Positions 44,302 through 59,280 of a stretch of DNA of 64,000 nucleotides are shown here, piece after piece. The stretch is taken from positions 992,001 to 1,056,000 of the forward strand of contig JAPWJW010000001.1 of assembly GCA_028283825.1 (NCBI GenBank). The letters are read 5' to 3'. Position 1 is the stretch's first letter. Each line of letters begins with the position of its first letter. Source of the DNA: Azospirillaceae bacterium. Lineage in GTDB: Bacteria; Pseudomonadota; Alphaproteobacteria; Azospirillales; Azospirillaceae. The position numbers were made by a program, and so were the translations under genes. The notes under the pieces were generated by a model. It did no database searches and had not been told where the DNA came from. It saw only the letters and a list, made by a program, of their open reading frames with translations.

Positions 44302-44865
44302 TCAGCAGAGTCCGGGCACGCGGCCCCAGTGCGCCACCTCGGTGCGTCCCCGGGCGGGGGCGGGCCGGTCCGCGCCGGAGGGGGCGGCGGCGGGTTGGCC
44401 CCGGATGATGATTTCCTGAAGCGTATGCACGCCCAGCTTCTCACTGGCCCGTTCGCGGTGCTTCTGCACGGTGCGGGGGCTGATGTCGATCAGCCGGGCG
44501 ATTTCCTTGCTGGTCAGGCCGGCGGCGACGTAGCGCACCACCTCCGCCTCACGCGGGCCCAGGGCATCCCAGGCCAGCGGCGGCGGCGTCTGCCTGGCCT
44601 GCCGGGCGACACCACTGGCATAGGCGATCAACTGCGCGGTGGAGGCCAGACCCGCCTTGCGCATGATGTTGGAGCGGTGCTTGCGGATGGTCAGCTCCGA
44701 CGCGCCCAGGGCGGCGGCGATCTGCGAACTGCTGAGGCCCTGTCCGGTCAGGTCCAGGACTTCGCGTTCCCGGGGGGTGAAGGGCGTGGCGATGGAGGGT
44801 GTCATGGCGGCTGGCTCATGGGCGGTTGTGGTCACCGCGGCGCCTGGCGCCAACGGCCCACACAC
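44302..44865 (-). CDS. Regulator with two LuxR-type HTH domains
   Basis: A 187-residue protein made of two GerE/LuxR-type helix-turn-helix domains in tandem. The first is FTPREREVLDLTGQGLSSSQ to LTIRKHRSNIMRKAG; the second is LGPREAEVVRYVAAGLTSKE to TVQKHRERASEKLGV. No receiver or autoinducer domain is present. Start at 44865 or an ATG at 44805. Tandem LuxR HTH proteins without a sensory domain are uncommon. Its targets are unknown; it lies just behind NrsF (convergent) and downstream of the STAND gene pair on the same strand. Confidence 0.82.
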   Translation of the reverse strand: MCGPLAPGAAVTTTAHEPAAMTPSIATPFTPREREVLDLTGQGLSSSQIAAALGASELTIRKHRSNIMRKAGLASTAQLIAYASGVARQARQTPPPLAWDALGPREAEVVRYVAAGLTSKEIARLIDISPRTVQKHRERASEKLGVHTLQEIIIRGQPAAAPSGADRPAPARGRTEVAHWGRVPGLC

Positions 44866-45043: not shown

Positions 45044-45487
45044 TTACACAATGCCGCCGGTGTTAATAACCTCTGGATCCGAGGAAATCATATCGCCAAT
45101 AGCGTTGCCGAGCATGTCTATTGGAATAGCATTGAAAAGAACTTCTCCAACTGCAGTGAAGTTCCTGTTTTGTTGCGTATTGTAAATTGTAATAGTGGTT
45201 GTTGTAACGTCTGGAGGGGGCATTAGGTCCGTATAATCTTCTCCCTGACTATTCGTGTAATAGGTAATAGTTGGATATTCAAATTTAAATTTCTTTGACG
45301 TTTCTTCATCTAGTTCGAACGTCATATGTCCAATACCAGACGTGGCGCCGATCGAAAATGACTTAGAATGTATGTGATTATAGTACCATATGTATTTTGG
45401 ATTCTTCCGGCTCTTGCTCTTTGGATCTTTTATGATGCGAACGGTAAAGTAAATCCTTCCATCCGGACAATCGCCTCTTGATGTCAT
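45044..45487 (-). CDS. Hypothetical protein, AT-rich, partner of the STAND gene
   Basis: A 147-residue protein of no family I recognise. It has no signal peptide or membrane helix; it is rich in Thr, Tyr, Ile and Asn with probable beta strands (FTVRIIKDPKSK, TITIYNTQQN). Codon use is AT-rich, quite unlike its neighbours, which points to recent acquisition. It starts 13 bp after the STAND-protein stop with a good GGAGTGAC ribosome site, so it is co-transcribed with it, and it ends before a terminator. Possible roles are an effector, target or regulator of the STAND protein; there is no direct evidence. Confidence 0.65.
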   Translation of the reverse strand: MTSRGDCPDGRIYFTVRIIKDPKSKSRKNPKYIWYYNHIHSKSFSIGATSGIGHMTFELDEETSKKFKFEYPTITYYTNSQGEDYTDLMPPPDVTTTTITIYNTQQNRNFTAVGEVLFNAIPIDMLGNAIGDMISSDPEVINTGGIV

Positions 45488-45500
45488 TATTAGTCACTCC

Positions 45501-48500
45501 TTAGGGTGTGGTTGTAGATTGAAGATACTCAGTGCCCCGATATCCCATGGTACTCAGGATCCGGCTTCCAGCCTCGGCCATCGCTTGGTTCCCGCTGCAT
45601 CGATTGGCACGGACCCAAGGATCAAGAATGCGAAAATCTTTACTTAATAAAGCCATTGTCTTGAGTGCATCAACTACGTTCTGGCAGACTTTCTTTGCTT
45701 CTGTATTTTCTCCGCGTGTAAGAAATATATTAGAGCTTGCGAGTAATATATTGGAAAATAGAATTGTTCTTAGTTTGTCTTTGTGATCTCGCTCATACGA
45801 TCCTCGAACAATGTTGGCTGCTTCTTCTATTTTCTGGATGGCAGAATTTAATTCTTTCGTTGATGTTAAGATGGTGCCGTGCAGCATGAGAGCTTCGGCT
45901 TTTTGGCGCTGTAATTGATCATCTGCCGGGTTGACGCGAAGCATCTGATCAACAGTTGTCTCTATATTAATTATATCTGGTAAGGCGCTTTCAAAGTTGC
46001 CACCAGCTAAGTCCGCTCGCGCTTTTAGAAGACGGATTTCTGTTCGAGTGATTTGCCAGCGTCGGTTCTCAGGTTCTCTATGCAAACAATCGTCAATTTG
46101 CGCCATAGCTTGGCCTAGGCTTACAATGGCGGGTGCTGTCTTGCCTTGGGCTTCCAGAAGGGAACTTTTCAATCGACCGGCGGCCGCCAAACGAAATAAC
46201 CAGACCGCTGCGTCTGGCTGTCGGCGGTGCACCTCGTCCAGGACTTCGCGTTGTTCATCATAAAGGTCGGTTGCTGCTTCCAATTGCCCTCGTTCAGACT
46301 GCGCTTCTGCCAATAAGGAGAGGCTGTTCGCCAAGTCGGCTGACAGCGAGATATTATCGGGATGAGCCATTATTGCTCGTCGTTTCAAGGCAATGGAGTC
46401 GTTGAGATTATCCGTTGCCATGTCGTCTTCGCCTTCGCGCAAATGCGCAGTGCCAAGGCTGCTCAGTGCGTAGGAAAGCTCAATCCAGGCATTTGGCTCG
46501 TTTGGCTCAAGGCTCATTCGGCGTTGGGCAAAATCCCGATATTGCGTGAAACGACGCATCGTTTCATCAAGTCGCCCTTGGTCCAATGCGATTTGGCCAT
46601 ACCAAAAGGCGATTGACCCCGCAGTCTTCAAGGTCTCGCCATCATGAGCCCTTTCCGCTAAGTTGGCTTGCAATAAGCTTTCTGCTTGGCCCAACGCCTT
46701 AAGGGCAATATCCACGTTGCCGCGTGAGCGATTGACATCGGCCAAAGTCTGCAGCGCTTTGGCTTGGCGCAGGCGAGCCTCACTTGGGATGCGTCCCGGG
46801 TCGTCTACGGTAAGATAGCCCAGGGCCTTCTGCGCCACGCCGTCCAGCACGTCCAGGCGGCCCAGGGGTTGCAGCTTTTCGGCCAGGTCGCCCAGCATGT
46901 AGTCGACCAGTTCTTCCGCCCCTTGCAGGCGCTGGGCGGCCACCGCTTCCGCCCGGCTGGCGCGCAGGCCCAGGAAGGCGGCCACCAGGGCGATGGCGGC
47001 GAAGCTGACCATCGCGCCCAGGCGCAGGCGGTCTGCCCGCTTGGCCTGGCGGGTGGAGGCGGTGACCAGGGCCTTGACCTCGGCGCTGACGGGCACGGTG
47101 GCGCGGCTGACCAGGTCGCGCGCCTCTTCCAGCGGCTTGCCCCGGCGCAACAGGCGGTCGGCGCGGCGGCCCTCGTTCAGCCACTGTTGCGCCAGCCCTT
47201 CCAGCTGGCTGCGGGCGCGCAGGGCCTGGCGGTGTTCGGCGATCCAGGTCACGGCCCGGGGCCATTGCCGCAGCAGGGCCTCATGCGCCACGCCGAACAC
47301 GGCCTGGGTTTCCGACACCTGGCTGACGAACAGCCGTTCGTCCACCAGGGCGCGCACCAGGGTGCGCTCATCCTCCGTCGCCAGGTTCGACCAGGCGGCG
47401 CGCAGGCCGCGCACCGTGTCGTCGGCGGCGCTGACGGCCACCATCAGGGAGAAGATGCGGGGCAAGGCGGCCTGGGCGGCGGCGGGCAAGGTGGCCAGCG
47501 TGGCCTCCGCCCGGCGGCCGATCGCGCCCTCGATACCGCCCAGGCCGCGATAGGCCGCCAGGGTCAGCTCCCGCGTCGGGCTGCGCAGCAGGTAGAGCTG
47601 CTGCAAGGTGTACTGCAACAGGGGCAGGGCGTCCGGGCTGTCGGCGGCGGCGTCGCACAGCAGATCGTCCAGGCGCTCATTGCCGTCCGGGTCGCCGCCG
47701 AAGCTGAGGCCGGCGATCTCCGCCGGCAGGCGGATCATCTGGCCGATCTCCGCCCGGCTGGGGGGCAGCAGGTCGAAATGGCCGCCGGCCGCCTTGCCTT
47801 CCATCAGCAGCGGCTCTTTGGCCAGGTCGGGATAGAAGTCGTTGCGGCAGGCGGCGATGACCATGACCTGGCCGCCCCGCGCCAGGCGGTCCAGCGCCGT
47901 CAGGAACTGCCGCCGTTGCAGGCCGCTGGCGAAGGCGGCGCTGAACAGCGCCTCCAGCCGGTCGATGAACAGGATGAAGCGGTCGCCGGCGGTTTCCGGC
48001 GCGTCGGTCGGCCGGGTTCCGTCCCGGGGGGCCTGGCCCTCTTCGATCAGGCTCTGGCCCAGATGCTCGGCACTTTGCCCGGCGTAGAGGGGTTCGCCGT
48101 CCCGGTCCAAATCCAGCAAGGCGCCGCCCAGGGCGGTGGGCAAGGGCACGGCGCCGATGCCGCCCAGGTCCAGGATTGTGGCCCCTGTGATCCGGGGCGT
48201 GGCGCCGTCGCGCATCAGGGCGGGCAGCAGGCCCGCCTGGACCAGGGAGGTCTTGCCGCTGCCGCTGGCGCCCAGGATGAGGACGAAGGCGCGCCCGCCA
48301 TTGGCCTGGCTGGCCAGCAGGTCGCGCAGGCGGGTGACGGCGACGTCGCGCCCGAAGAAGACGGACGAATGGGTGGCTTCGAACGACGCCAGGCCGACGT
48401 AAGGCGATTCCCGCGCCCAGGTTTCCGGCGCCAGGTCGGCGTCGCGGTGCGTCGCCATGATCACCGGCGCTACGGTGCGGTAGCCGCGCTTGCGAATGTT

Positions 48501-48776
48501 CTCGATGTAGCGGGGTTCGGTGGCGCTGTCGCCTAGGGCTTTGCGCAGCTGGGTGATGGCCTTGTGCACCTGGTTCTCGCCGACGGCGATGCCGTCCCAG
48601 CACAGGTGCAGCAGGTCGTCGGCGCTCAATATCTTGCCGGCGTTCATGCACAGCGCCATCAGCACGTCCAGGGCGCGCGGCTCAACCGGGATCTGGGCAG
48701 CCTCATCCTCGCGCCACACGGCACATGCCTGCGCGTCCACCTGCCAATCACCGAATTGAAAGCGCTTAACCTTCAC
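45501..48776 (-). CDS. Winged-helix / STAND NTPase / TM / TPR protein
   Basis: A 1091-residue multidomain protein. Residues ~1-105 form an OmpR/CadC-type winged HTH (VEPRALDVLMALC, IENIRKRGYRTVAPV). Residues ~130-560 form an nSTAND-type NTPase with Walker A LGASGSGKTSLVQ (~169) and a Walker-B-like ILFIDRLEAL. A TM helix (~582-604, SFAAIALVAAFLGL) follows, then a TPR-like helical region to the end. GTG at 48776 is chosen because AGAGGA precedes it; a start further upstream would add 35 unlikely residues. GC content falls sharply at about 46790 (residue ~660), so the TPR half has a different origin from the NTPase half. Such proteins sense a ligand through repeats and signal through NTPase oligomerisation; a role in defence or stress sensing is possible. 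Confidence 0.82.
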   Translation of the reverse strand: MKVKRFQFGDWQVDAQACAVWREDEAAQIPVEPRALDVLMALCMNAGKILSADDLLHLCWDGIAVGENQVHKAITQLRKALGDSATEPRYIENIRKRGYRTVAPVIMATHRDADLAPETWARESPYVGLASFEATHSSVFFGRDVAVTRLRDLLASQANGGRAFVLILGASGSGKTSLVQAGLLPALMRDGATPRITGATILDLGGIGAVPLPTALGGALLDLDRDGEPLYAGQSAEHLGQSLIEEGQAPRDGTRPTDAPETAGDRFILFIDRLEALFSAAFASGLQRRQFLTALDRLARGGQVMVIAACRNDFYPDLAKEPLLMEGKAAGGHFDLLPPSRAEIGQMIRLPAEIAGLSFGGDPDGNERLDDLLCDAAADSPDALPLLQYTLQQLYLLRSPTRELTLAAYRGLGGIEGAIGRRAEATLATLPAAAQAALPRIFSLMVAVSAADDTVRGLRAAWSNLATEDERTLVRALVDERLFVSQVSETQAVFGVAHEALLRQWPRAVTWIAEHRQALRARSQLEGLAQQWLNEGRRADRLLRRGKPLEEARDLVSRATVPVSAEVKALVTASTRQAKRADRLRLGAMVSFAAIALVAAFLGLRASRAEAVAAQRLQGAEELVDYMLGDLAEKLQPLGRLDVLDGVAQKALGYLTVDDPGRIPSEARLRQAKALQTLADVNRSRGNVDIALKALGQAESLLQANLAERAHDGETLKTAGSIAFWYGQIALDQGRLDETMRRFTQYRDFAQRRMSLEPNEPNAWIELSYALSSLGTAHLREGEDDMATDNLNDSIALKRRAIMAHPDNISLSADLANSLSLLAEAQSERGQLEAATDLYDEQREVLDEVHRRQPDAAVWLFRLAAAGRLKSSLLEAQGKTAPAIVSLGQAMAQIDDCLHREPENRRWQITRTEIRLLKARADLAGGNFESALPDIINIETTVDQMLRVNPADDQLQRQKAEALMLHGTILTSTKELNSAIQKIEEAANIVRGSYERDHKDKLRTILFSNILLASSNIFLTRGENTEAKKVCQNVVDALKTMALLSKDFRILDPWVRANRCSGNQAMAEAGSRILSTMGYRGTEYLQSTTTP

Positions 48777-48906
48777 GGGCCATCCTCTGGCTTCGGCAAA
48801 AACGGTTTTCCCGGTACCTGTCTCAACCGTGTGACTGCGGCCACGGCCACGCCCCCTACCGGGGCGCATATATAACCGCATGCCACAACCTCCGCGACAA
48901 AACTAT

Positions 48907-49764
48907 TCAAAAGGCGTAAGCGGGCGCTGAAACCGGGTCCCGCTCCGCACTTGTCCGGGTGGTCCTCCCGGCCTGGAACGCCGCACAGACGCCCGAGAAT
49001 GCGGCCGGGTGGGCCAAGACGGCGGACGCTTCGACCTCGGCCTCGACCATCACCGGCCGCGTGCCGGCGGCGTAGTCCTCCCGGTACTGGATGGTCAAAT
49101 CCTGTAGCCGCATCCGCATGTCTGATTCGTAGTTCGTCCGGGGATGGGTGGTCAGCGACGCGCCGTGGGTGCGGCGCAGATAGAGGAACTCTTCCAGGAC
49201 GGTGGTGGCGAAGCCCGCCGCCTGCGCCCGGATGACGAATTCGGTATCGGCGCCGCAGGGCCAGGCGCGGAAGGCGCCCAGCCGATCCCAGATGTGCCGC
49301 CGGGCGACGAACTGGCCGTCCGTGCCCTTGCGGCGGTGGCCCTTCTCGGGGCGGTAGTCGGGCAGGGCCGGCACGATGGATGTCGGCCGCAGGGCCTCAT
49401 CCGTGTACACGCTCCATGACATGCTGAGGTCGGCGCCGGCCTCCAGCGCCTCGATGTGGCGGCGCAGATAGCCGTCCAGCATGACGTCATCCGCGTCGAA
49501 GCGGGCGATCACCTCGCCCTCGGCGAACCGCATCAGGGTGTTGAAGGTGACGTACGTGCCGCGGTTGCGCGGCAGGTACACCACCCGCAGGTCCGCGTAC
49601 GGCGCCGTTCCGACATAGTCCAGCGTATCGGCGCAGCCATCGATGCCCAGCAGCACCTGCAGGCGCCACCCCGGCGGCAGGGACTGCGCGAACACGGCGT
49701 CCAGGCAATCGCCCAGCCAGCGGCGCGCGTCAAAGGCGGCGATCAGGACGGATAGGGTCTTCAA
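48907..49764 (-). CDS. Family-2 glycosyltransferase
   Basis: A 285-residue GT-A glycosyltransferase. SVLIAAFDARRWLGDCLDAV opens the fold and the metal-binding DxD is in IARFDADDVMLDGYL. The acceptor region contains CGADTEFVIRAQAAGF. A TTG start at 49764 fits an AGGGGA ribosome site eight bases upstream and the normal N-terminus of the family. It is the last gene of the six-gene operon, 26 bp after the second ATP-grasp gene. It would transfer a sugar from a nucleotide donor to the product of the cluster. Confidence 0.85.
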   Translation of the reverse strand: MKTLSVLIAAFDARRWLGDCLDAVFAQSLPPGWRLQVLLGIDGCADTLDYVGTAPYADLRVVYLPRNRGTYVTFNTLMRFAEGEVIARFDADDVMLDGYLRRHIEALEAGADLSMSWSVYTDEALRPTSIVPALPDYRPEKGHRRKGTDGQFVARRHIWDRLGAFRAWPCGADTEFVIRAQAAGFATTVLEEFLYLRRTHGASLTTHPRTNYESDMRMRLQDLTIQYREDYAAGTRPVMVEAEVEASAVLAHPAAFSGVCAAFQAGRTTRTSAERDPVSAPAYAF

Positions 49765-49790
49765 GGCTGTCCCCTCATCTGGATGGGCGG

Positions 49791-50717
49791 TCAGTGCGCG
49801 CAGGTCGCCAGTTCGGCCTGGGTCGTCAGGTCGCGCAGGCCGCGCCGCAGGAAGGCGAACCAAGGGGCTCGGGGCGGGTTCTGGCCGTAAAAGGGCGTCA
49901 GGTTCAGGTCGATGATGGTGTGCCGGGTGCCGTCGTGGATGACGTCCAGGCAGAAATAATCGAAGGGATACCGGCCGATGAACCCGGCCAGCTGCCGCCA
50001 CAAATCGCGGGGGAAACCGCCATGGTCGTCGGTCAGCGTGTCCAGCCGGCGGCGGTCGATGCAGACCCATCGGTCCTCCGGCCGCTCATCCTCTTTCTTG
50101 ATCAGGTCCGGGCTATGGGCCCGGATGCAGACCAGCGCGTCACCACAGCCGTAGATGCGGTACAGCGTGTCGTCATGGGCGATGAAATTCTCGATCACCA
50201 GGCCCGGATGGTCCCACCAGGCGGGTGCGATCTCATCCCGCCGCATCAGGCGATAGTCGTCCCAGCCGCGGATGGGGCAATCGACCTGCAATGAGAACAG
50301 CGGCTGCAGGTCGGGCGGCAGCGCGCGTTCCGCCTTGCCGCCATAGTTCAGGTCGGTCTTCACGAACAGGAACTGGTCGTCCGGCCCCTGGCGATCGGCC
50401 CGGGCGCAGCGCAGGCCGGCGCGTTCCAGCATGGTGTGCAGGGTGCGCTTGCGCATGTCCGCCAGGCCGGCGTTCAGCACCCGGATGCCCCGCCGTGCCA
50501 GTTGCCGTTCCAGTTCGGGACGCCGGCGGGGGAACAGGGCGGCGTGCGACAGGCAATTGTGGAACAGCACCGTGTTGATGCTGGGCCCGCAGGCCGCGTC
50601 CAGCACGTCCCACCCGTCCTCCCACTGCGCGGCGCAATGCGCGGACACCAGGTGGCTGATCAGATAGCCGCGCCACGCGTTCCACTCATAGACCAGAAGA
50701 TTGCCCAGCTTTTCCAT
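49791..50717 (-). CDS. ATP-grasp-like ligase, second in the operon
   Basis: A 308-residue protein that I assign to the ATP-grasp fold with moderate confidence. FLFVKTDLNYGGKAE looks like the lysine and glycine-rich nucleotide loop, GLVIENFIA like the hinge, and FCLDVIHDGTRHTIIDLNLTPFYG like the terminal metal site (D...D-x-N). The N-terminal ~100 residues form a pre-ATP-grasp region. Such enzymes join a carboxylate to an amine via acylphosphate. It lies 23 bp after the adenylation gene. Confidence 0.68.
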   Translation of the reverse strand: MEKLGNLLVYEWNAWRGYLISHLVSAHCAAQWEDGWDVLDAACGPSINTVLFHNCLSHAALFPRRRPELERQLARRGIRVLNAGLADMRKRTLHTMLERAGLRCARADRQGPDDQFLFVKTDLNYGGKAERALPPDLQPLFSLQVDCPIRGWDDYRLMRRDEIAPAWWDHPGLVIENFIAHDDTLYRIYGCGDALVCIRAHSPDLIKKEDERPEDRWVCIDRRRLDTLTDDHGGFPRDLWRQLAGFIGRYPFDYFCLDVIHDGTRHTIIDLNLTPFYGQNPPRAPWFAFLRRGLRDLTTQAELATCAH

Positions 50718-50740
50718 ACGGATCTGCCTTTATCGGACGG

Positions 50741-51949
50741 TCATCGGCGCAGGTCGACCAGGGTCGCCGTCTTGGCCGTGGTGGGGTCGAGGCGCAGGTC
50801 GGCCAGGGTGACCGCCCGCACATGGGTCGTGCCGCTGCCCGGGTCCTGCTTCATGTGCCGGCGCAGGCGCTCCGCCATGCATCCCAAGTCCGTCGCGCCG
50901 TCGCAGACCACATGCAGGCCCAGCCGGTCGCAGCCGTCCGGCCCAAAATCCAGCACCGCCTGCCAGGCGGTGCACCCCTCGGCCACGGCGGCGAAACCGC
51001 TGTCGTCGTGGGTGATCTCATAGAACCGGAAGGAACGTGGCCGGCGGCCCCGGACCTCCAGCAGCCGTTCGCCATCTCGTGTCACGACGCGGCCGAAGTC
51101 GCCCTGGCTGTAGCGGAACAGGGGGAAGCGCTCGCGCCAGGTGTTGGTCACCACGATTTCGCCGAAGCCGTCCGCGTCGGGCTCATGGATTTCCACCAGC
51201 ACCCGTGGCAGCACGGTGAACAGGCCCGGTGTGGCGCTGGCGTCGCACACCCCCCAGATGCCGGTTTCCGCCGCCCCGTACATCGACCAGATCTGCCGGA
51301 TGCCGAAGGTGCGGCACAGGCGTTCGCGCACGGAATCGCGCATCAGTTCGCCGGCGTACAGCAGGTTCTGGAACTGGGGCGGGGCCTGGCCCGATTCCTC
51401 GCACCAGTTGGCGAACAGCGTCAGGATGGACGGCGTGCCCGCCAGGTGGGTGGGCTGGAACAGGTCCGCCGCCGCGCGCATGTCGCTGTAGGGCGACTGC
51501 GCGCTCATCGGCAGGGTGGTGGCGTAGCATCGCTCCAGCAAATCATCGATGATGGCGGCGGTGCGGTAGAGGCCGGTGTAGGCGAACAGGTTCAGCACCA
51601 CCGAGCTGGGTGCGAACACCCCCCGGGCCAGCAGATGCTCGGCCAGCGCCTGCCGCTGGGCGTGGTTCTCGGCGATGTCCACCGGGAAGATCAGCGGGCC
51701 GCTGGTGCTGCCGCCGGAGCGCACCAGGTACACCCCGCGCGCCTCCCCGGCGGGGGAGAAGCCGTCCAGGGCCGCCAGAAGGTCGGCCTTCTGGCACACC
51801 GGCGCGTCCTGCCAATGGTCGTAGCCGCGATAGAAGGTGCGCCAGAAGGGATGGTTGCGTGCGACCTGGAACGCCTGTGCCATCTGGCGGGCCACGGGGG
51901 CGGCGCTTTCATGGCTCTCGCCGGCGATCCAGCCTGCGTCCGGGCTCAT
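50741..51949 (-). CDS. PaaK-like adenylate-forming enzyme
   Basis: A 402-residue member of the ANL (AMP-dependent synthetase/ligase) superfamily, closest in shape to phenylacetate-CoA ligase. The phosphate loop is LVRSGGSTSGPLIFP, the adenine motif is SMYGAAETGIWG, and the hinge region includes FPLFRYSQGDFGRVV. The C-terminal domain is short. It would activate a carboxylic acid as the adenylate, perhaps for transfer to an amine or thiol. It overlaps the preceding glycosyltransferase gene by four bases. No carrier-protein gene is visible nearby. Confidence 0.82.
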   Translation of the reverse strand: MSPDAGWIAGESHESAAPVARQMAQAFQVARNHPFWRTFYRGYDHWQDAPVCQKADLLAALDGFSPAGEARGVYLVRSGGSTSGPLIFPVDIAENHAQRQALAEHLLARGVFAPSSVVLNLFAYTGLYRTAAIIDDLLERCYATTLPMSAQSPYSDMRAAADLFQPTHLAGTPSILTLFANWCEESGQAPPQFQNLLYAGELMRDSVRERLCRTFGIRQIWSMYGAAETGIWGVCDASATPGLFTVLPRVLVEIHEPDADGFGEIVVTNTWRERFPLFRYSQGDFGRVVTRDGERLLEVRGRRPRSFRFYEITHDDSGFAAVAEGCTAWQAVLDFGPDGCDRLGLHVVCDGATDLGCMAERLRRHMKQDPGSGTTHVRAVTLADLRLDPTTAKTATLVDLRR

Positions 51950-52881
51950 GCCGCCCTCCCCAGCAAGGGCAGGTCGATGTCGAAATGCGCCAGCAGGGTG
52001 CCGTGGGCGGCGCGGAACGCGTCACGCTGGGCATCGTCGGGCAGGCTTTCCAGCGCATAGGCCAGCCAGCGCCGGCCCAGGGTGTGGCACAGGCGACGGT
52101 CGTCGGCATCAAAGCTGTGGCGGAACCGCTCCAGGCTGGGCGGGACCTGCAATTGCCGCCAGTCGCCGCAGCGCCGGTGCGACAGGCTGTCGGGCAGGAT
52201 GCGGTAGCGGATCAGCGGTTCGGCCAGCAGGCCCACCGGGGCCATGGCCGGGGCGCCCGCGCGTCTGACGACGCGCTTGGCGACGCGGTACCAGAAATCG
52301 ATGTTCTCATTCACATGGCGGCCTTCGGCGAAGCATTCCTCACCGATGGCGCTGCGGCGGGCGGCCACGTTGCTGGCCCGCCCCATGAAAAAGTCCGGGT
52401 GGCTGGCGGTGGCCGTCACACGCGGCAGGTGGTGCAGCGCCCCGTCCAGCGGCACGGCCTCGGCCCCCAGGGCGGCCATGTCGGGGAAATATTCCCCGTC
52501 GGGCGCGGTCTCGAACCCCAGGACCAGCAGATCCAGGGTGTGGGCGTGCATGCAGCGCAGGATTTCGCTGCAACTATCCTCACGCCAGCGGTCGTCGGCA
52601 TCCAGGAAGGCCAGCACCGTGCCGCCGGCCCGCTTCAGCCCGCGATTGCGCGCGGCGCTGGGGCCGCCGTTGACGGGCAGGCGCAGCAGGTCGGTGCGGG
52701 CGACACCCGCCTGGGCCAGGCGCAGCAGGCCGGCCTCGGCCCGTGCCGCGCTGTCGTCGGTGGAGGCGTCGTCCACCACGATGACCTCGAACGGCAGGTG
52801 CGTCTGGCGCGCCAGCGAGGCCAGGGCCTCCCCGATATAATCCTGCCGGTTGTACAGGGGGATGACGACCGACAGGCTCAT
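51946..52881 (-). CDS. Family-2 glycosyltransferase
   Basis: A 311-residue GT-A glycosyltransferase. SLSVVIPLYNRQDYIGEAL and EVIVVDDASTDDS give the nucleotide-binding strand, and the DxD is in VLAFLDADDRWREDS. ATG at 52881 overlaps the ATP-grasp stop by four bases. It is the third gene of the operon, between the first ATP-grasp and the adenylation gene. The sugar is unknown. Confidence 0.88.
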   Translation of the reverse strand: MSLSVVIPLYNRQDYIGEALASLARQTHLPFEVIVVDDASTDDSAARAEAGLLRLAQAGVARTDLLRLPVNGGPSAARNRGLKRAGGTVLAFLDADDRWREDSCSEILRCMHAHTLDLLVLGFETAPDGEYFPDMAALGAEAVPLDGALHHLPRVTATASHPDFFMGRASNVAARRSAIGEECFAEGRHVNENIDFWYRVAKRVVRRAGAPAMAPVGLLAEPLIRYRILPDSLSHRRCGDWRQLQVPPSLERFRHSFDADDRRLCHTLGRRWLAYALESLPDDAQRDAFRAAHGTLLAHFDIDLPLLGRAA

Positions 52882-54059
52882 GATGCCACCGTGCACCGAT
52901 AGAGTTTGCCCCGCTGCTGATGCAGGTTGATCACCGCCTCGTCCGATCCGCGAAAGACGCCGTTGCCGTAGCAGACGGCATCGCGGCACAGCAGCATGCC
53001 CACCATGTGGATGGGCCGGGCGAAGTCGGAATCCATGAAATCCAGCTGTTCCAGGTAGGGCTGGAACATCAGGTGCGGCCAGTCGCGCCGCACCCGCTGC
53101 GCCCAATCGGCGGCACTGCATAAGGAGCGCACCAGTGAGCCGATGCCCCGCCCGCCGCTGTTGGGCTTGGCGATCCAATCGCCATCGCGCAGCAACAGCC
53201 GCTCCGCCTCCACGGCCGAGCGGGCGCAAAGCGACGGGATAAGGTGCGGCCGCAATTGCGCGTAAAGTGCCGCCGGCATGGCGTCGCGCATGATGGCCTC
53301 ATCCGACAGCACCGCCAGCACGCGCTTGTCATGCACCAGGATCAGGGTGCGCACGTCGTTGAAGTAATCCGCGCGGGTGGCCAGGTGGGCCATGACCTCG
53401 GGCGCCATCAGCGGCAACTCATCCCGGTCCAGTTGCAGGATCAGATGGTCCAGCGGCCGTCCTTGGGCGTGCGGGGCGGCGTACAGGCCCCCGTCACGCA
53501 CCGTCAGGTCCCGGGGCCGCACGGCGACGAAGCCGACGCCGGTGCGCGTCAGGTGCTCTGCCAGGCAGTCGACCTCGCCGCTGGGTTCCTGGCCGTGCAC
53601 CAGGGCCACGGTGTCGCCGGGCCGGTAGGGCGCGCACAGATCGTCCCAGAAATCCGCCTGGCCCTGCGACCAGGCGCGGCTAACCATCCAGCCGTTCAGG
53701 GGATAGCGCGCGCCGATTTCGCAGATGCGTGCCGTGCCGTCCCGGTCCAGGATGAAATCCGGCCGGTACCAGCCCACGTGATAGGGCCGGGCCGCCGCCA
53801 TTCCCAGGATGCGTTCCAGGTCCGGCGACAGGGCGTAGATGGCCCGGATGCGGGCGTCGATGAAATACCGCTGCACCACCGCCCTCAGGGCCGTGTCGAT
53901 CAGGCCGGTCAGGGCGCGCATCTGGTCGCGGTAGGCGGCCGGGAGGACGACGGCGCGGTCGGAACAGACCTCGCCATGGCGCAGCCCCCCCACCATGGGA
54001 AGTGCCGCCCCCATGGCGCCGCTGGCTTCGACCAGGGTGGGGTGGCGGCCGTCAGTCAT
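52878..54059 (-). CDS. ATP-grasp-type ligase, first in the operon
   Basis: A 393-residue protein. WIAKPNSGGRGIGSLVRS (lysine plus glycine-rich loop) and the segment PHLMFQPYLEQLDFMDS identify the ATP-grasp fold in its C-terminal half. The N-terminal half contains RPDFILDRDGTARICEIGAR, which resembles the pre-ATP-grasp region of glutathionylspermidine-synthetase and PGM1-type peptide ligases. ATG at 54059 overlaps the preceding gene by eight bases. It would form an amide or peptide bond in the product of the cluster. Confidence 0.75.
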   Translation of the reverse strand: MTDGRHPTLVEASGAMGAALPMVGGLRHGEVCSDRAVVLPAAYRDQMRALTGLIDTALRAVVQRYFIDARIRAIYALSPDLERILGMAAARPYHVGWYRPDFILDRDGTARICEIGARYPLNGWMVSRAWSQGQADFWDDLCAPYRPGDTVALVHGQEPSGEVDCLAEHLTRTGVGFVAVRPRDLTVRDGGLYAAPHAQGRPLDHLILQLDRDELPLMAPEVMAHLATRADYFNDVRTLILVHDKRVLAVLSDEAIMRDAMPAALYAQLRPHLIPSLCARSAVEAERLLLRDGDWIAKPNSGGRGIGSLVRSLCSAADWAQRVRRDWPHLMFQPYLEQLDFMDSDFARPIHMVGMLLCRDAVCYGNGVFRGSDEAVINLHQQRGKLYRCTVAS

Positions 54060-54855
54060 GGCTGGGGAACAGCGTCCGCAGGACGGCGGCCTTCTTTTGC
54101 AGATACTGGCCGACGATGCCCGCCAGGTCATAGGCCGCCCAATCGACCTGGACTGCCCGCGCGTAATGCTCCAGGGCGTTCACCGCGTGGAAGAAGTGGT
54201 TCTTCTCCGTGCCGCCGCAGTGCACGGCGATCCAGCGCAGGGGGCGGGCGGTGTCGTCCTCGGTGTAATGGTAATGTTCGATCAGCCACTGCTTGAACAG
54301 GGGCAGGATGAACTCGACCTCGCCATGGGTGTAGATCTCATGCGCCAAGGTGGTCAGCAGGCCAAGCGCGATATCGGGTTCGCGCAGGGACATGTGGTCC
54401 TTCCATGTCTTGAAGTCCGCCGCGGTCCGGTCGATATAGCCGGTCCGCAGCCAGGCATCGTCACCGGTGATGGCGGTCGCCATGGTGAAATACATCTTGG
54501 AATGCAGGATCTTATGGGTCACCGCCAGGTCTTCGTCGATGATCCGGTGCAGGGAAACCAGGGTCCGCAGCAGGGCCTGTTCGTCCAGCACCGGTTCGCC
54601 GCGATGCAGCTTCAGGGTCAGCCGGTTGCTGATGCCCGCCACCGTCATGGCGCTGTTGTTGGTCTGGCCCCAGCTCGCGAAAAACCGGCGCAGGGTTTCC
54701 GCGTCCTGCACCCGCGAGGTCAGGCTGCGAAAGCCGTTTTCAATTACCGCGAATTCCGCCGGATGGTTCGCGAAGCCTTGCAGCAACGGCCCCCGAAACG
54801 GCCCGTCGGGCATTGATCGCAGCACGGGCAGGATGTTGCCGGCCAAGGTTTCCAT
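54052..54855 (-). CDS. Uncharacterised protein, possibly heme-oxygenase-like fold
   Basis: A 267-residue all-helical protein, first gene of the operon. I do not recognise a named family. Helices with Glu and His at spacings seen in heme-oxygenase-like diiron oxidases are visible: TLAHEIYTHGEVEF, and E-x2-H in GTEKNHFFHAVNALEHY. An N-oxygenase, desaturase or decarboxylase of that superfamily is therefore possible, but this is a pattern argument only. ATG at 54855 is preceded by GGGGGAATT. A long AT-rich region upstream carries the operon promoter. Confidence 0.55.
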   Translation of the reverse strand: METLAGNILPVLRSMPDGPFRGPLLQGFANHPAEFAVIENGFRSLTSRVQDAETLRRFFASWGQTNNSAMTVAGISNRLTLKLHRGEPVLDEQALLRTLVSLHRIIDEDLAVTHKILHSKMYFTMATAITGDDAWLRTGYIDRTAADFKTWKDHMSLREPDIALGLLTTLAHEIYTHGEVEFILPLFKQWLIEHYHYTEDDTARPLRWIAVHCGGTEKNHFFHAVNALEHYARAVQVDWAAYDLAGIVGQYLQKKAAVLRTLFPSHD

Positions 54856-55454
54856 ATGAAATTCCCCCGAAAAACAGGTGTTGTATTGCGCCGATGCGTG
54901 ATTGGCGTTCTTTTGTTTTTGATGAAAAGCTAATTTTTATTGGCCTGTCTCAGGTTCGATTTATGAAATCATAAAACATGACAACCACCCGTCTGCGTGC
55001 TCGAAAAATACATCAAGTACTCGAAGCATTATTTTAAAATTCTCCGGCATGTATTTTCAGATTCTTAGTTTATATTTCTGGCATCATATAAGATGGCGCA
55101 TTTTTATAAATGCCACCGATTGCGTACATTGCTGAAAGATCGGACCGTCCGGCCTGCCGAACGGCAGCCGGGGCCGTTGGCCATCCTGATCGCGATGCCG
55201 TCAGGATGGCGCCCAGACGCCCATGGGCGCAGGCTCGGGTGTGGGTTGAGGTTCTACGTCGCCAGCGTCAGAGATTGAGGGCCAGGCGGGGTGATCGGCT
55301 GCGGAAACAGCACGAGGGGGATCCGGTCGCCGGCACGACCCGCGACTGACGGCACCCTGGCCTTCACGCCGCTGACGTTGGGGATCGCCTGTGGCGCCCC
55401 AACGTCAGCTTTCGCGCACCGCCCACCTGGTGCTGGGCGCGCTTACCGAGGTGA
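54856..55454. promoter_or_regulatory. Promoter region of the six-gene operon; no gene seen
   Basis: The part next to the operon (54880-55110) is strikingly AT-rich for this genome and must hold its promoter. It contains a direct near-repeat GCTCGAAAAATACATC / TACTCGAAGC. The distal half is GC-rich without a convincing reading frame. A perfect 12-bp stem CTGACGTTGGGG (55372-55383 with 55397-55408) lies 46 bp behind the stop of the LigB-type gene and is probably its terminator. Confidence 0.45.
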
Positions 55455-56601: not shown

Positions 56602-56721
56602 TCAATATCCCTGGAGGCCGGCGACTGCCGGCCCCGGAGTGAGCACCGCAGGGCGGAACGAGGAAGCCAAGCCAGCGGATGCTGGCGCCCGGCGCTTGAG
56701 GGGGCCTTTGATCGGTCAAGA
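56602..56721 (+). repeat. Dispersed intergenic palindromic element, copy 7 (with extra hairpin)
   Basis: The element ends with GATGCTGGCGCCCGGCGCTTGAGGGGGCC and a hairpin CCTTTGATC...GATCAAAGG, the same hairpin seen in copy 5. It reaches the stop codon of the UvrA-like gene and may terminate it. The centre shares GGAACGAGGAAGCCAAGCC with copy 6. Confidence 0.75.
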
Positions 56722-59280
56722 TCAAAGGCCGCGCGTATAAGGGCGCAGGTGGGGGGCCGTCCGGCTGTCGGGGGATGCCGCCACCGCCGCCGGCGTGCCG
56801 GCGGCCACCACCCGGCCGCCCTCGTCGCCGGCACCGGGGCCGATGTCGATCACCCAGTCGCTGGCGGCCGCCACGCCCATGTCGTGGTCCACCACGATGA
56901 CGGTGTTGCCGGCCGCCACCAGGGCGTCCAGCTGGACCACCAGCCGGTCCACATCCGTGGGATGCAGGCCGGTGGTGGGCTCATCCAGCACGTAGAGGGC
57001 ACCGCCCTTCTGCGCCCGCTGCAGCTCGGTCGCCAGCTTGATGCGTTGCGCCTCCCCGCCGGAAAACTCCGTCGCCGGCTGGCCCAGGCGCAGATAGTCC
57101 AGGCCGACCTGGCGCAGAACCTCCAGCGACCGGCGCACGGTGGGCACGTCCTGGAAGAAGTCGAAAGCCCCCGCCACCGTCAGGCCCAGCACGTCGGCGA
57201 TATTCTTGCCCTGATAGGTGATCTCCAGCGTCTCGTCATTGTAGCGGGTGCCGTGGCAGAGGGGGCAGGGGGCATAGACGCTGGGCAGGAACAGCAGTTC
57301 CACCGTCACCGCCCCCTCGCCCTCGCACCGGGGACAGCGGCCCTTGGCCACGTTGAAGGAAAAGCGGCCGGCGTCGTACCGGCGCCGCCTGGCTTCCGGG
57401 GTGGCGGCGAACAGTGCGCGCACATGGTCCAGCAGGCCGGTGTAGGTGGCGAGGTTGGAGCGTGGCGTGCGGCCGATGGGCTTCTGGTCCACCTGGATCA
57501 GGCGCCTGATGCCGCCGAGGCCCCCGTCAAGCCGGCCTTCGGTCGCGGCCGCCGGCTCCTGTTCCAGCATCGCCTCTGCATCGGCCGGCTCATCCTCCAC
57601 CGCCACGGGCGCGCCCAGGGCCTGGCCCACCAGTTCCACCAGCGCCTGGCTGACCAGGCTGGACTTGCCGGAACCGGAGATGCCGGTGACGGTGGTCATG
57701 ACGCCCAGGGGAAAGGCGCAATCGAGGTCGGCCAGGTTGTTGCGGGTGACGCCCGCCAGCCGTAGCCAGCCCTTGGGCGCCCGGCGGGATCCCTGATGGG
57801 CCTGCCCATCCGCGAACAGATGGCGGGCGGTCTGCGACGCTGCCACCTGGCGCAGCCCCTGCGGCGGCCCGCTGTAGAGGATCTGGCCGCCGCCCTCGCC
57901 GGCGGCGGGGCCGACATCGACGATCCAGTCGGCATGGCGCACCACGTCCAAATCGTGTTCCACCACGAACAGGGAATTGCCCACCGCCTTCAGCCCGTCC
58001 AGCGCCCGCAGCAGCGCCTGGGTGTCGGCCGGGTGCAAACCCGCCGACGGCTCATCCATCACATAGACCACGCCGAACAGGTTGGAGACCACCTGCGTGG
58101 CCAGGCGCAGGCGCTGCAATTCCCCGGGCGACAGGGTGGGAGTGCTGCGCTCCAGCGTCAGGTAGCCCAGGCCCAGATCCAGCAGCACGGCCAGGCGCCG
58201 GCGCAAATCGGCGGCGATGCGCGTGATGACGATGGCCGTTTCCGGCCGCGCCCGGCGCAACCGGTCTAGCCTGTCCGATCCCTCCTCCGCATAAGGTGCG
58301 AAAAGGGCGGATATGCGCTTCAGGGGCAGGCGACCCATGTCGGCGATGTCCAGCCCCTCGAACGTCACCGACAGCGATTCCGGCCGCAACCGTTTGCCGT
58401 GACAGGTGGGGCAGGGGCTGCTGACCATGAAGCCGGCGGCGCGCTTCTTCATCATGGCGCTTTGCGTGGTGGCGAAGCTGTGGGTCACGTGCCGCCGCGC
58501 GCTGGAGAAGGTGCCCATGTAGTTGGGCTCCAGCCCCCGCCGAACGGCCTCCTTTACCTGGGCGGCGGTGAAGCCGGGGTAGACCGGCACCTCCGGCTGT
58601 TCGTCGGTGAACAGGATCCAGTCACGGGTCTTTTTCGGCAGGTCGCGCCAGGGGGTGTCGACGTCGATGCCGAGCGTGATCAGGATGTCGCGCAGGTTCT
58701 GCCCGCCCCAGGCGGTGGGCCAGGCCGCCACCGCCCGCTCGCGGATGGTCAGCGACGGGTCGGGCACCATGGACGCCTCGGTCACCGCATGCACCCGGCC
58801 CAAGCCGTGGCAGGTGGGGCAGGCCCCCTCCGGCGTGTTGGTGGAGAAGGCCTCCGCCTCCAGGTGCGGCTGGTCCGGCGGATAATCGCCGGCGCGGGAA
58901 TACAGCATGCGCAGCAGGTTGGACAGGGTGGTGACACTGCCGACGGAGGACCGCGCCGTGGGCGACCCGCGCTGCTGTTGCAGGGCCACCGCCGGTGGCA
59001 GGCCCTCGATCATGTCCACGTCCGGCACGCTCATCTGGTGGAACAGCCGGCGGGCGTAGGGCGAGACGGATTCCAGATAGCGGCGCTGCGCCTCCGCATA
59101 CAGCGTGCTGAACGCCAGCGAGGATTTGCCGGAGCCGGAAACGCCGGTGAACACCACCAGCGCGTCGCGTGGGATGTCCACGTCGACGTTCTTCAAATTG
59201 TGCTCCCGGGCACCCCGGACGCGGACGAAGCCGGTGGTGCCGCTTGCCGCCACGTCTTTGGAATCAAGGTGCTTATCCAT
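56722..59280 (-). CDS. UvrA2-like ABC ATPase (excinuclease subunit A family)
   Basis: An 852-residue UvrA-family protein with two ABC modules: Walker [17 protein letters not shown] near the N-terminus and [14 protein letters not shown] in the middle, signature motifs [14 protein letters not shown] and [15 protein letters not shown], and Walker [14 protein letters not shown] and [13 protein letters not shown]. Zinc-finger cysteines occur in [22 protein letters not shown] and CPLCHGTR. It is about 100 residues shorter than UvrA and fits class II (UvrA2, DrrC-like), which lacks the UvrB-binding part. Roles in resistance to DNA-binding drugs are known for the class. ATG at 59280 follows GAGGAG. 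It is divergent from the FecI gene. Confidence 0.9.

Follow-up and report, generated by a model that had tools for sequence, protein, structure and literature searches.

Two described systems come closest to the locus studied here. In the mangotoxin cluster, two ATP-grasp ligases accompany a haem-oxygenase-like diiron oxidase (HDO) and a reductase; counts of HDO/ATP-grasp clusters have reached at least 25 types (PMC13185094). In the fungal synthesis of E-64 by Cp1A-D, the ATP-grasp enzyme Cp1B, a proven amide ligase, couples trans-epoxysuccinate to amino acids (PMC12568646). Here we describe a six-gene cassette from the 7.2 Mb genome of an Azospirillaceae bacterium (GCA_028283825.1), which lies in a 64,000-nucleotide stretch of contig JAPWJW010000001.1 (positions 992,001 to 1,056,000; hereafter the window, to which all positions refer) and is likely a biosynthetic operon independent of nonribosomal peptide synthetases (NRPS). 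The chances are about even that the six genes are transcribed as a single unit serving the NRPS-independent synthesis of a small glycosylated pseudopeptide or amide, oxidised and made in the cytoplasm.

The six-gene cassette and its distribution

All six open reading frames (ORFs) are confirmed on the minus strand, from 54855 down to 48907:

54052 to 54855, minus strand: HDO, putative haem-oxygenase-like diiron oxidase, 267 amino acids
52878 to 54059, minus strand: ATPg1, Cp1B-type ATP-grasp ligase, 393 amino acids
51946 to 52881, minus strand: GTa, family 2 glycosyltransferase (GT2), 311 amino acids
50741 to 51949, minus strand: AMP, PaaK-like adenylate-forming enzyme, 402 amino acids
49791 to 50717, minus strand: ATPg2, ITPK-like ATP-grasp protein, 308 amino acids
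48907 to 49764, minus strand: GTb, family 2 glycosyltransferase (GT2), 285 amino acids, TTG start

The arrangement is operon-like, with overlaps of 8 bases between HDO and ATPg1 (54052/54059), 4 between ATPg1 and GTa (52878/52881) and 4 between GTa and AMP (51946/51949), followed by gaps of 23 bases between AMP and ATPg2 and 26 between ATPg2 and GTb. A preliminary description, made from the window's letters, had read these genes as one biosynthetic operon without NRPS, polyketide synthase (PKS) or carrier protein. The ORFs, overlaps and gaps bear this out, and only the start of GTb needed correction: the alignment and the upstream sequence place it at a TTG (49764) instead of an ATG. Pfam and NCBIfam models detected no NRPS, PKS or carrier domains in the six proteins (short precursor ORFs were not searched exhaustively), and none of the six carries a membrane segment (0/6). 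The operon claim draws support from gene spacing, from the family assignments given below and from the fact that the cassette is conserved as a unit.

The cassette resembles mangotoxin-type clusters in its putative HDO, its two ATP-grasp proteins, its lack of an NRPS and its small-peptide logic. Unlike them, it also encodes a PaaK-like enzyme and two glycosyltransferases and has no MboB-like reductase among its six genes; its HDO-like protein is not recognisable by sequence, and its ATP-grasp proteins, judged by their own database matches, are Cp1B-like and ITPK-like. With the E-64 pathway (PMC12568646) it shares the pairing of a Cp1B-type ATP-grasp ligase with an adenylate-forming enzyme, an amide synthetase in E-64. 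It differs in lacking an Fe/2-oxoglutarate oxygenase and a pyridoxal phosphate-dependent decarboxylase and in the PaaK-like character of its adenylating enzyme, and it encodes in addition an HDO-like protein, a pair of glycosyltransferases and one more ATP-grasp protein. Because defining genes of each system are missing, we file the cassette with neither, despite the similar logic. Our literature search, which did not extend to subscription papers and supplements, found no earlier description of this enzyme combination, and the cassette could be one of the 25 HDO/ATP-grasp types mentioned above (PMC13185094). The earlier judgement that this is not a standard class is half right, since HDO/ATP-grasp clusters (PMC13185094) and Cp1B-type ligases with an adenylating partner (PMC12568646) are both known.

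The six genes are conserved as a unit. They occur in identical order in 6 genomes: that of the window, four others of the Nitrospirillum group, which is probably also the window's genus, and a metagenome-assembled genome of the neighbouring genus Niveispirillum (L016/L028). Genus-mates among the genomes searched include Nitrospirillum viridazoti CBAmc, N. amazonense BR 11880, N. iridis DSM 22198 and Azospirillum sp. B4. Homologues of the six genes, which the preliminary description knew from the window alone, do cluster elsewhere. Full-length ATPg1 is present in 8/82 genomes of the order, and within the order ATPg2 is confined to the six cassette genomes (6/82). Ratios of nonsynonymous to synonymous substitution (dN/dS) of 0.14-0.32 for each cassette gene indicate purifying selection, so all six genes are real and selected; taken with the recurrence of the six-gene order in five other genomes, these ratios argue that the arrangement is not a product of chance. 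Similarity to the window extends from ~44.4 to 54.9 kb with one gap in L013 and L014, over the cassette and a LuxR gene in L015, and over the cassette only in L016. In L012 the cassette alone is shared, but it adjoins genes found 30 kb away in the window. The same six-gene order with mostly differing flanks implies that the cassette has defined ends.

More distant sampling, which is thin, returned the ATPg2 profile from the window's own genome only among 385 genomes of the class and, among 398 genomes of the phylum, just weak partial matches to ATPg1 elsewhere. No ATPg1 or ATPg2 homologue was found on plasmids. A test for an empty insertion site found no clean one, with uvrA standing in a different context in relatives.

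Enzyme families of the cassette

Five of the six genes belong to recognisable enzyme families. The two ATP-grasp proteins of the preliminary description are upheld, ATPg2 by Pfam and ATPg1 by homology to Cp1B, and no structural evidence contradicts ATP-grasp folds. ATPg1 has no Pfam match, and Cp1B (9cjn) is its sole significant match among solved structures (E = 6e-15 by profile, E = 2e-10 by single sequence). Cp1B residues R139, D141, E163 and N165 are each important for activity (PMC12568646). Matched through the RPD and E-I-N motifs of the HMMER alignment, R99, D101 and E114 of ATPg1 appear equivalent to R139, D141 and E163, and they are invariant in its homologues. ATPg1 is a Cp1B homologue that keeps three of the four tested catalytic residues, and its activity may differ. 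Solitary ATPg1 homologues also occur in two Azospirillum genomes (L017 5973-7172 and L018 11962-13146), where they adjoin an HppD-like gene and exopolysaccharide-type glycosyltransferases.

ATPg2 exceeds the cut-off of Pfam PF05770 (Ins134_P3_kin; 26.8 bits vs. 23) and has weak ITPK1 matches in the PDB. K120, D258, D270 and N272 are invariant, and the D-x-N metal motif, which it shares with ITPK-type kinases, is intact. Since the Pfam cut-off is passed and the lysine and acidic metal residues are kept, ATPg2 could be a ligase or a kinase. The match covers just part of the C-terminal half, and from the gene context an inositol phosphate seems an unlikely substrate. Structure prediction for ATPg2 gave a model too poor for use.

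The adenylation enzyme and the two glycosyltransferases reported previously are confirmed by PaaK-type models and PDB chains and by two GT2 Pfam matches. AMP scores under the cut-off of the Pfam AMP-binding model (27.9 bits, cut-off 29.9), but other models and PDB chains match significantly (NF045666, E = 9e-16; 9s3l, E = 3e-13; 4r1l, E = 2e-6), so its homology to ANL enzymes is not in doubt. The profile match to the PaaK-like enzymes 9s3l, 4r1l and 6siw is significant over the adenylation core but distant, so that the acceptor could be CoA or an amine; a C-terminal lysine (K393) is conserved. GTa and GTb both exceed the cut-off for Glycos_transf_2 (PF00535; E = 1e-28 and E = 4e-13, respectively) and keep their DxD motifs; the best named model for GTb is a mycofactocin glycosyltransferase, far below its cut-off. 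A distant AMP relative lies on a Rhizobium rhizogenes plasmid (L038 7941-11208), followed by short-chain dehydrogenase/reductase and ATP-grasp genes, with an amidase and a major facilitator superfamily (MFS) transporter nearby.

The first gene, previously called helical and oxidase-like, has no Pfam, NCBIfam or PDB sequence match. A low-confidence AlphaFold2 model is all-helical (pLDDT 60.7, pTM 0.63), and the top seven Foldseek matches to this model are all haem-oxygenase-like, including TenA (top), UndA, CADD and BesC (E = 0.05-0.2, none reaching E = 0.001). The prediction lends weak support to a haem-oxygenase-like fold, and nothing in it contradicts one. Among nine aligned homologues, which include proteins from one plasmid each of Azospirillum and Nostoc and from further proteobacteria, 17 columns are invariant, eight of which are E39, D109, H118, E173, E179, H212, E217 and H220. 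These three histidines and five acidic residues persist down to 18% identity and fall in three helical regions. In HDOs the ligands are three histidines plus three to four carboxylates, contributed by three or four helices (PMC13108848), and the match of the invariant residues to a diiron ligand set in composition and order is suggestive. The spacing of these putative ligands differs from that in MboA and hhalign failed to connect the protein to known HDOs, with a probability of 2% against a small Haem_oxygenas_2 set; we therefore call the first gene HDO-like rather than a proven HDO.

The pairing of HDO with GTa is also observed outside the cassette. In two genomes of one genus from a different alphaproteobacterial order (L045 and L063), an HDO homologue (53% identity) is directly followed by a full-length relative of GTa (37%). 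A Nostoc homologue precedes NRPS modules and glycosyltransferases, and one in Azospirillum B510 adjoins an MFS transporter and methyltransferases. These contexts speak for an involvement in making small molecules and for a functional link between HDO and GTa. Upstream of the intact pair, both L045 (9824-10666) and L063 (9189-10031) carry a degenerate HDO paralogue in which most putative metal residues are missing. Solitary HDO paralogues, adjoining an Lrp-type regulator and an EamA-type transporter, are present in two Nitrospirillum genomes (L026 10001-10804 and L027 10001-10804), one of which also carries the cassette.

Proposed pathway and alternatives

From these assignments we infer a set of reactions together with their order, substrates, metal site and product. 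ATPg1 would phosphorylate a carboxylic acid and join the product to an amino acid or amine. The PaaK-like AMP would adenylate a second carboxylate, perhaps the new C-terminus, for transfer to an amine, as in the E-64 amide synthetase, and ATPg2 would add a further amine or a phosphate. The HDO-like protein would then oxidise the intermediate at a non-haem diiron site, and GTa and GTb would attach two sugars, with GTa probably working together with HDO. The acid activation, amide formation, oxidation and glycosylation envisaged in the preliminary description fit this enzyme set as candidate steps. A more far-reaching proposal, which we offer tentatively and regard as somewhat unlikely, is that the product represents a new class of oxidised and glycosylated pseudopeptides built by ligases, and that the first gene stands for a branch of its own among the diiron oxidases, as yet unmodelled and recurrently partnered with glycosyltransferases across alphaproteobacteria and cyanobacteria.

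Several observations weigh against such a pathway. The cassette lacks genes for an exporter, for self-resistance, for a redox partner and for precursor supply. At the position of Cp1B N165, 8/8 ATPg1 homologues have a glycine (G116), a fixed change that may reflect altered metal binding or altered chemistry. ATPg2 may not form amides, because its nearest relatives are inositol phosphate kinases, and GT2 enzymes more often build polysaccharides. Finally, the HDO fold has no support from any sequence search, with both hmmsearch and hhalign to known HDOs negative, and the AlphaFold2 model is of low confidence.

Other products are conceivable. The cassette might decorate a cell-surface glycan, with the GT2 enzymes extending a saccharide and the ligases attaching amino acids or other acids; such families are typical of polysaccharide synthesis, and the solitary ATPg1 homologues of the two Azospirillum genomes lie near exopolysaccharide-type glycosyltransferases. 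We nevertheless consider this unlikely, as neither the cassette nor its conserved neighbourhood holds a membrane protein, lipid-carrier transferase, flippase or polymerase, and the Nostoc HDO homologue adjoins NRPS genes. Another candidate product is a glycosylated cofactor, thiol or stress metabolite that stays inside the cell, made by a combination of glycosyltransferase and ligase like that of mycothiol or mycofactocin. It would suit six proteins that all look cytosolic and lack an exporter, as well as the best named model for GTb. However, patchy presence in 6/82 genomes of the order argues against a general cofactor, and the cassette has no deacetylase, radical SAM or thiol gene, which together make this alternative very unlikely.

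A different alternative concerns the first gene alone and is compatible with the ligase part of our proposal. The protein might be helical but of another kind, for example a scaffold or a hydrolase resembling TenA, with no oxidation step in the pathway. Sequence profiles found no known HDO, TenA is the top Foldseek match, and L045 and L063 retain a paralogue stripped of most putative metal residues. The invariant histidine and acidic pattern in three helical regions instead fits what an HDO needs (PMC13108848), and we regard a non-oxidase as fairly unlikely.

Regulation, surroundings and significance

The preliminary description overlooked three genes downstream of the cassette, two of which are regulators. 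Together with an element upstream of the HDO gene, they add these features:

55104 to 55126, minus strand: 23-bp element upstream of the HDO gene, aligned across cassettes
45501 to 48881, minus strand: one-component regulator, an optional seventh gene, from Pfam and hydropathy
45044 to 45487, minus strand: small AT-rich gene, 147 amino acids, no assigned function, called as an ORF
44302 to 44865, minus strand: LuxR-type regulator, 187 amino acids, from Pfam GerE

The upstream element (TACGCAnTCnGTnGYATTTATAA) lies ~250 bases before the HDO gene. It aligns in all five Nitrospirillum-group cassettes and is degenerate in Niveispirillum. When two mismatches are allowed, every carrier genome of the genus (5/5) has a single copy, in each case ahead of the HDO gene, and two non-carrier genomes have none. 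Since the pattern was drawn from these very sites, their recovery is expected and the informative part is the absence of others. Expression of the cassette is probably controlled through this element, with the downstream regulators as candidates. A search for riboswitches or other RNAs found nothing credible. The AT-rich region upstream had been taken as a mark of special regulation or of acquisition; the cassette-specific element supports the former, whereas the cassette genes share the GC content of their surroundings, which led us to reject recent acquisition on base composition.

The regulator at 45501-48881 begins 25 bases downstream of GTb and is of a membrane-anchored one-component type, with an OmpR-type winged helix-turn-helix (wHTH) domain (Trans_reg_C, E = 3e-14), an nSTAND1 NTPase (E = 7e-86), a transmembrane segment near residue 621 by hydropathy, and TPR repeats. 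This wHTH-nSTAND1 regulator adjoins the cassette in the window, L013 and L014 only. A PADLOC defence-system scan matched none of the six cassette genes and gave weak ATPase matches in the regulator only, and we rejected a defence system on this basis. The 3′ end of the regulator gene and the region downstream are markedly AT-rich (GC 0.42-0.58). The LuxR-type regulator has two tandem GerE helix-turn-helix domains (Pfam GerE E = 2e-33, two stretches), and L013, L014 and L015 have relatives of it downstream of their cassettes; at the position of the small gene between the two regulators, L014 has a 144-amino-acid ORF. On the other side of the cassette, an interspersed repeat of ~130 bp (56611-56742) lies between a LigB-like dioxygenase gene and uvrA. 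The window's genome carries dozens of copies of it, and each genome in the genus has many.

If our proposal holds, alphaproteobacteria associated with plants and soil would combine in one cassette an amide ligase of the Cp1B type, known from a pathway to a cysteine protease inhibitor, two glycosyltransferases and what may be a new oxidase branch. The cassette spans just 6 kb between clear ends and is present in culturable strains, so its product is open to direct search. The family of its first gene has no Pfam model, and similar pathways would therefore be invisible to routine annotation.

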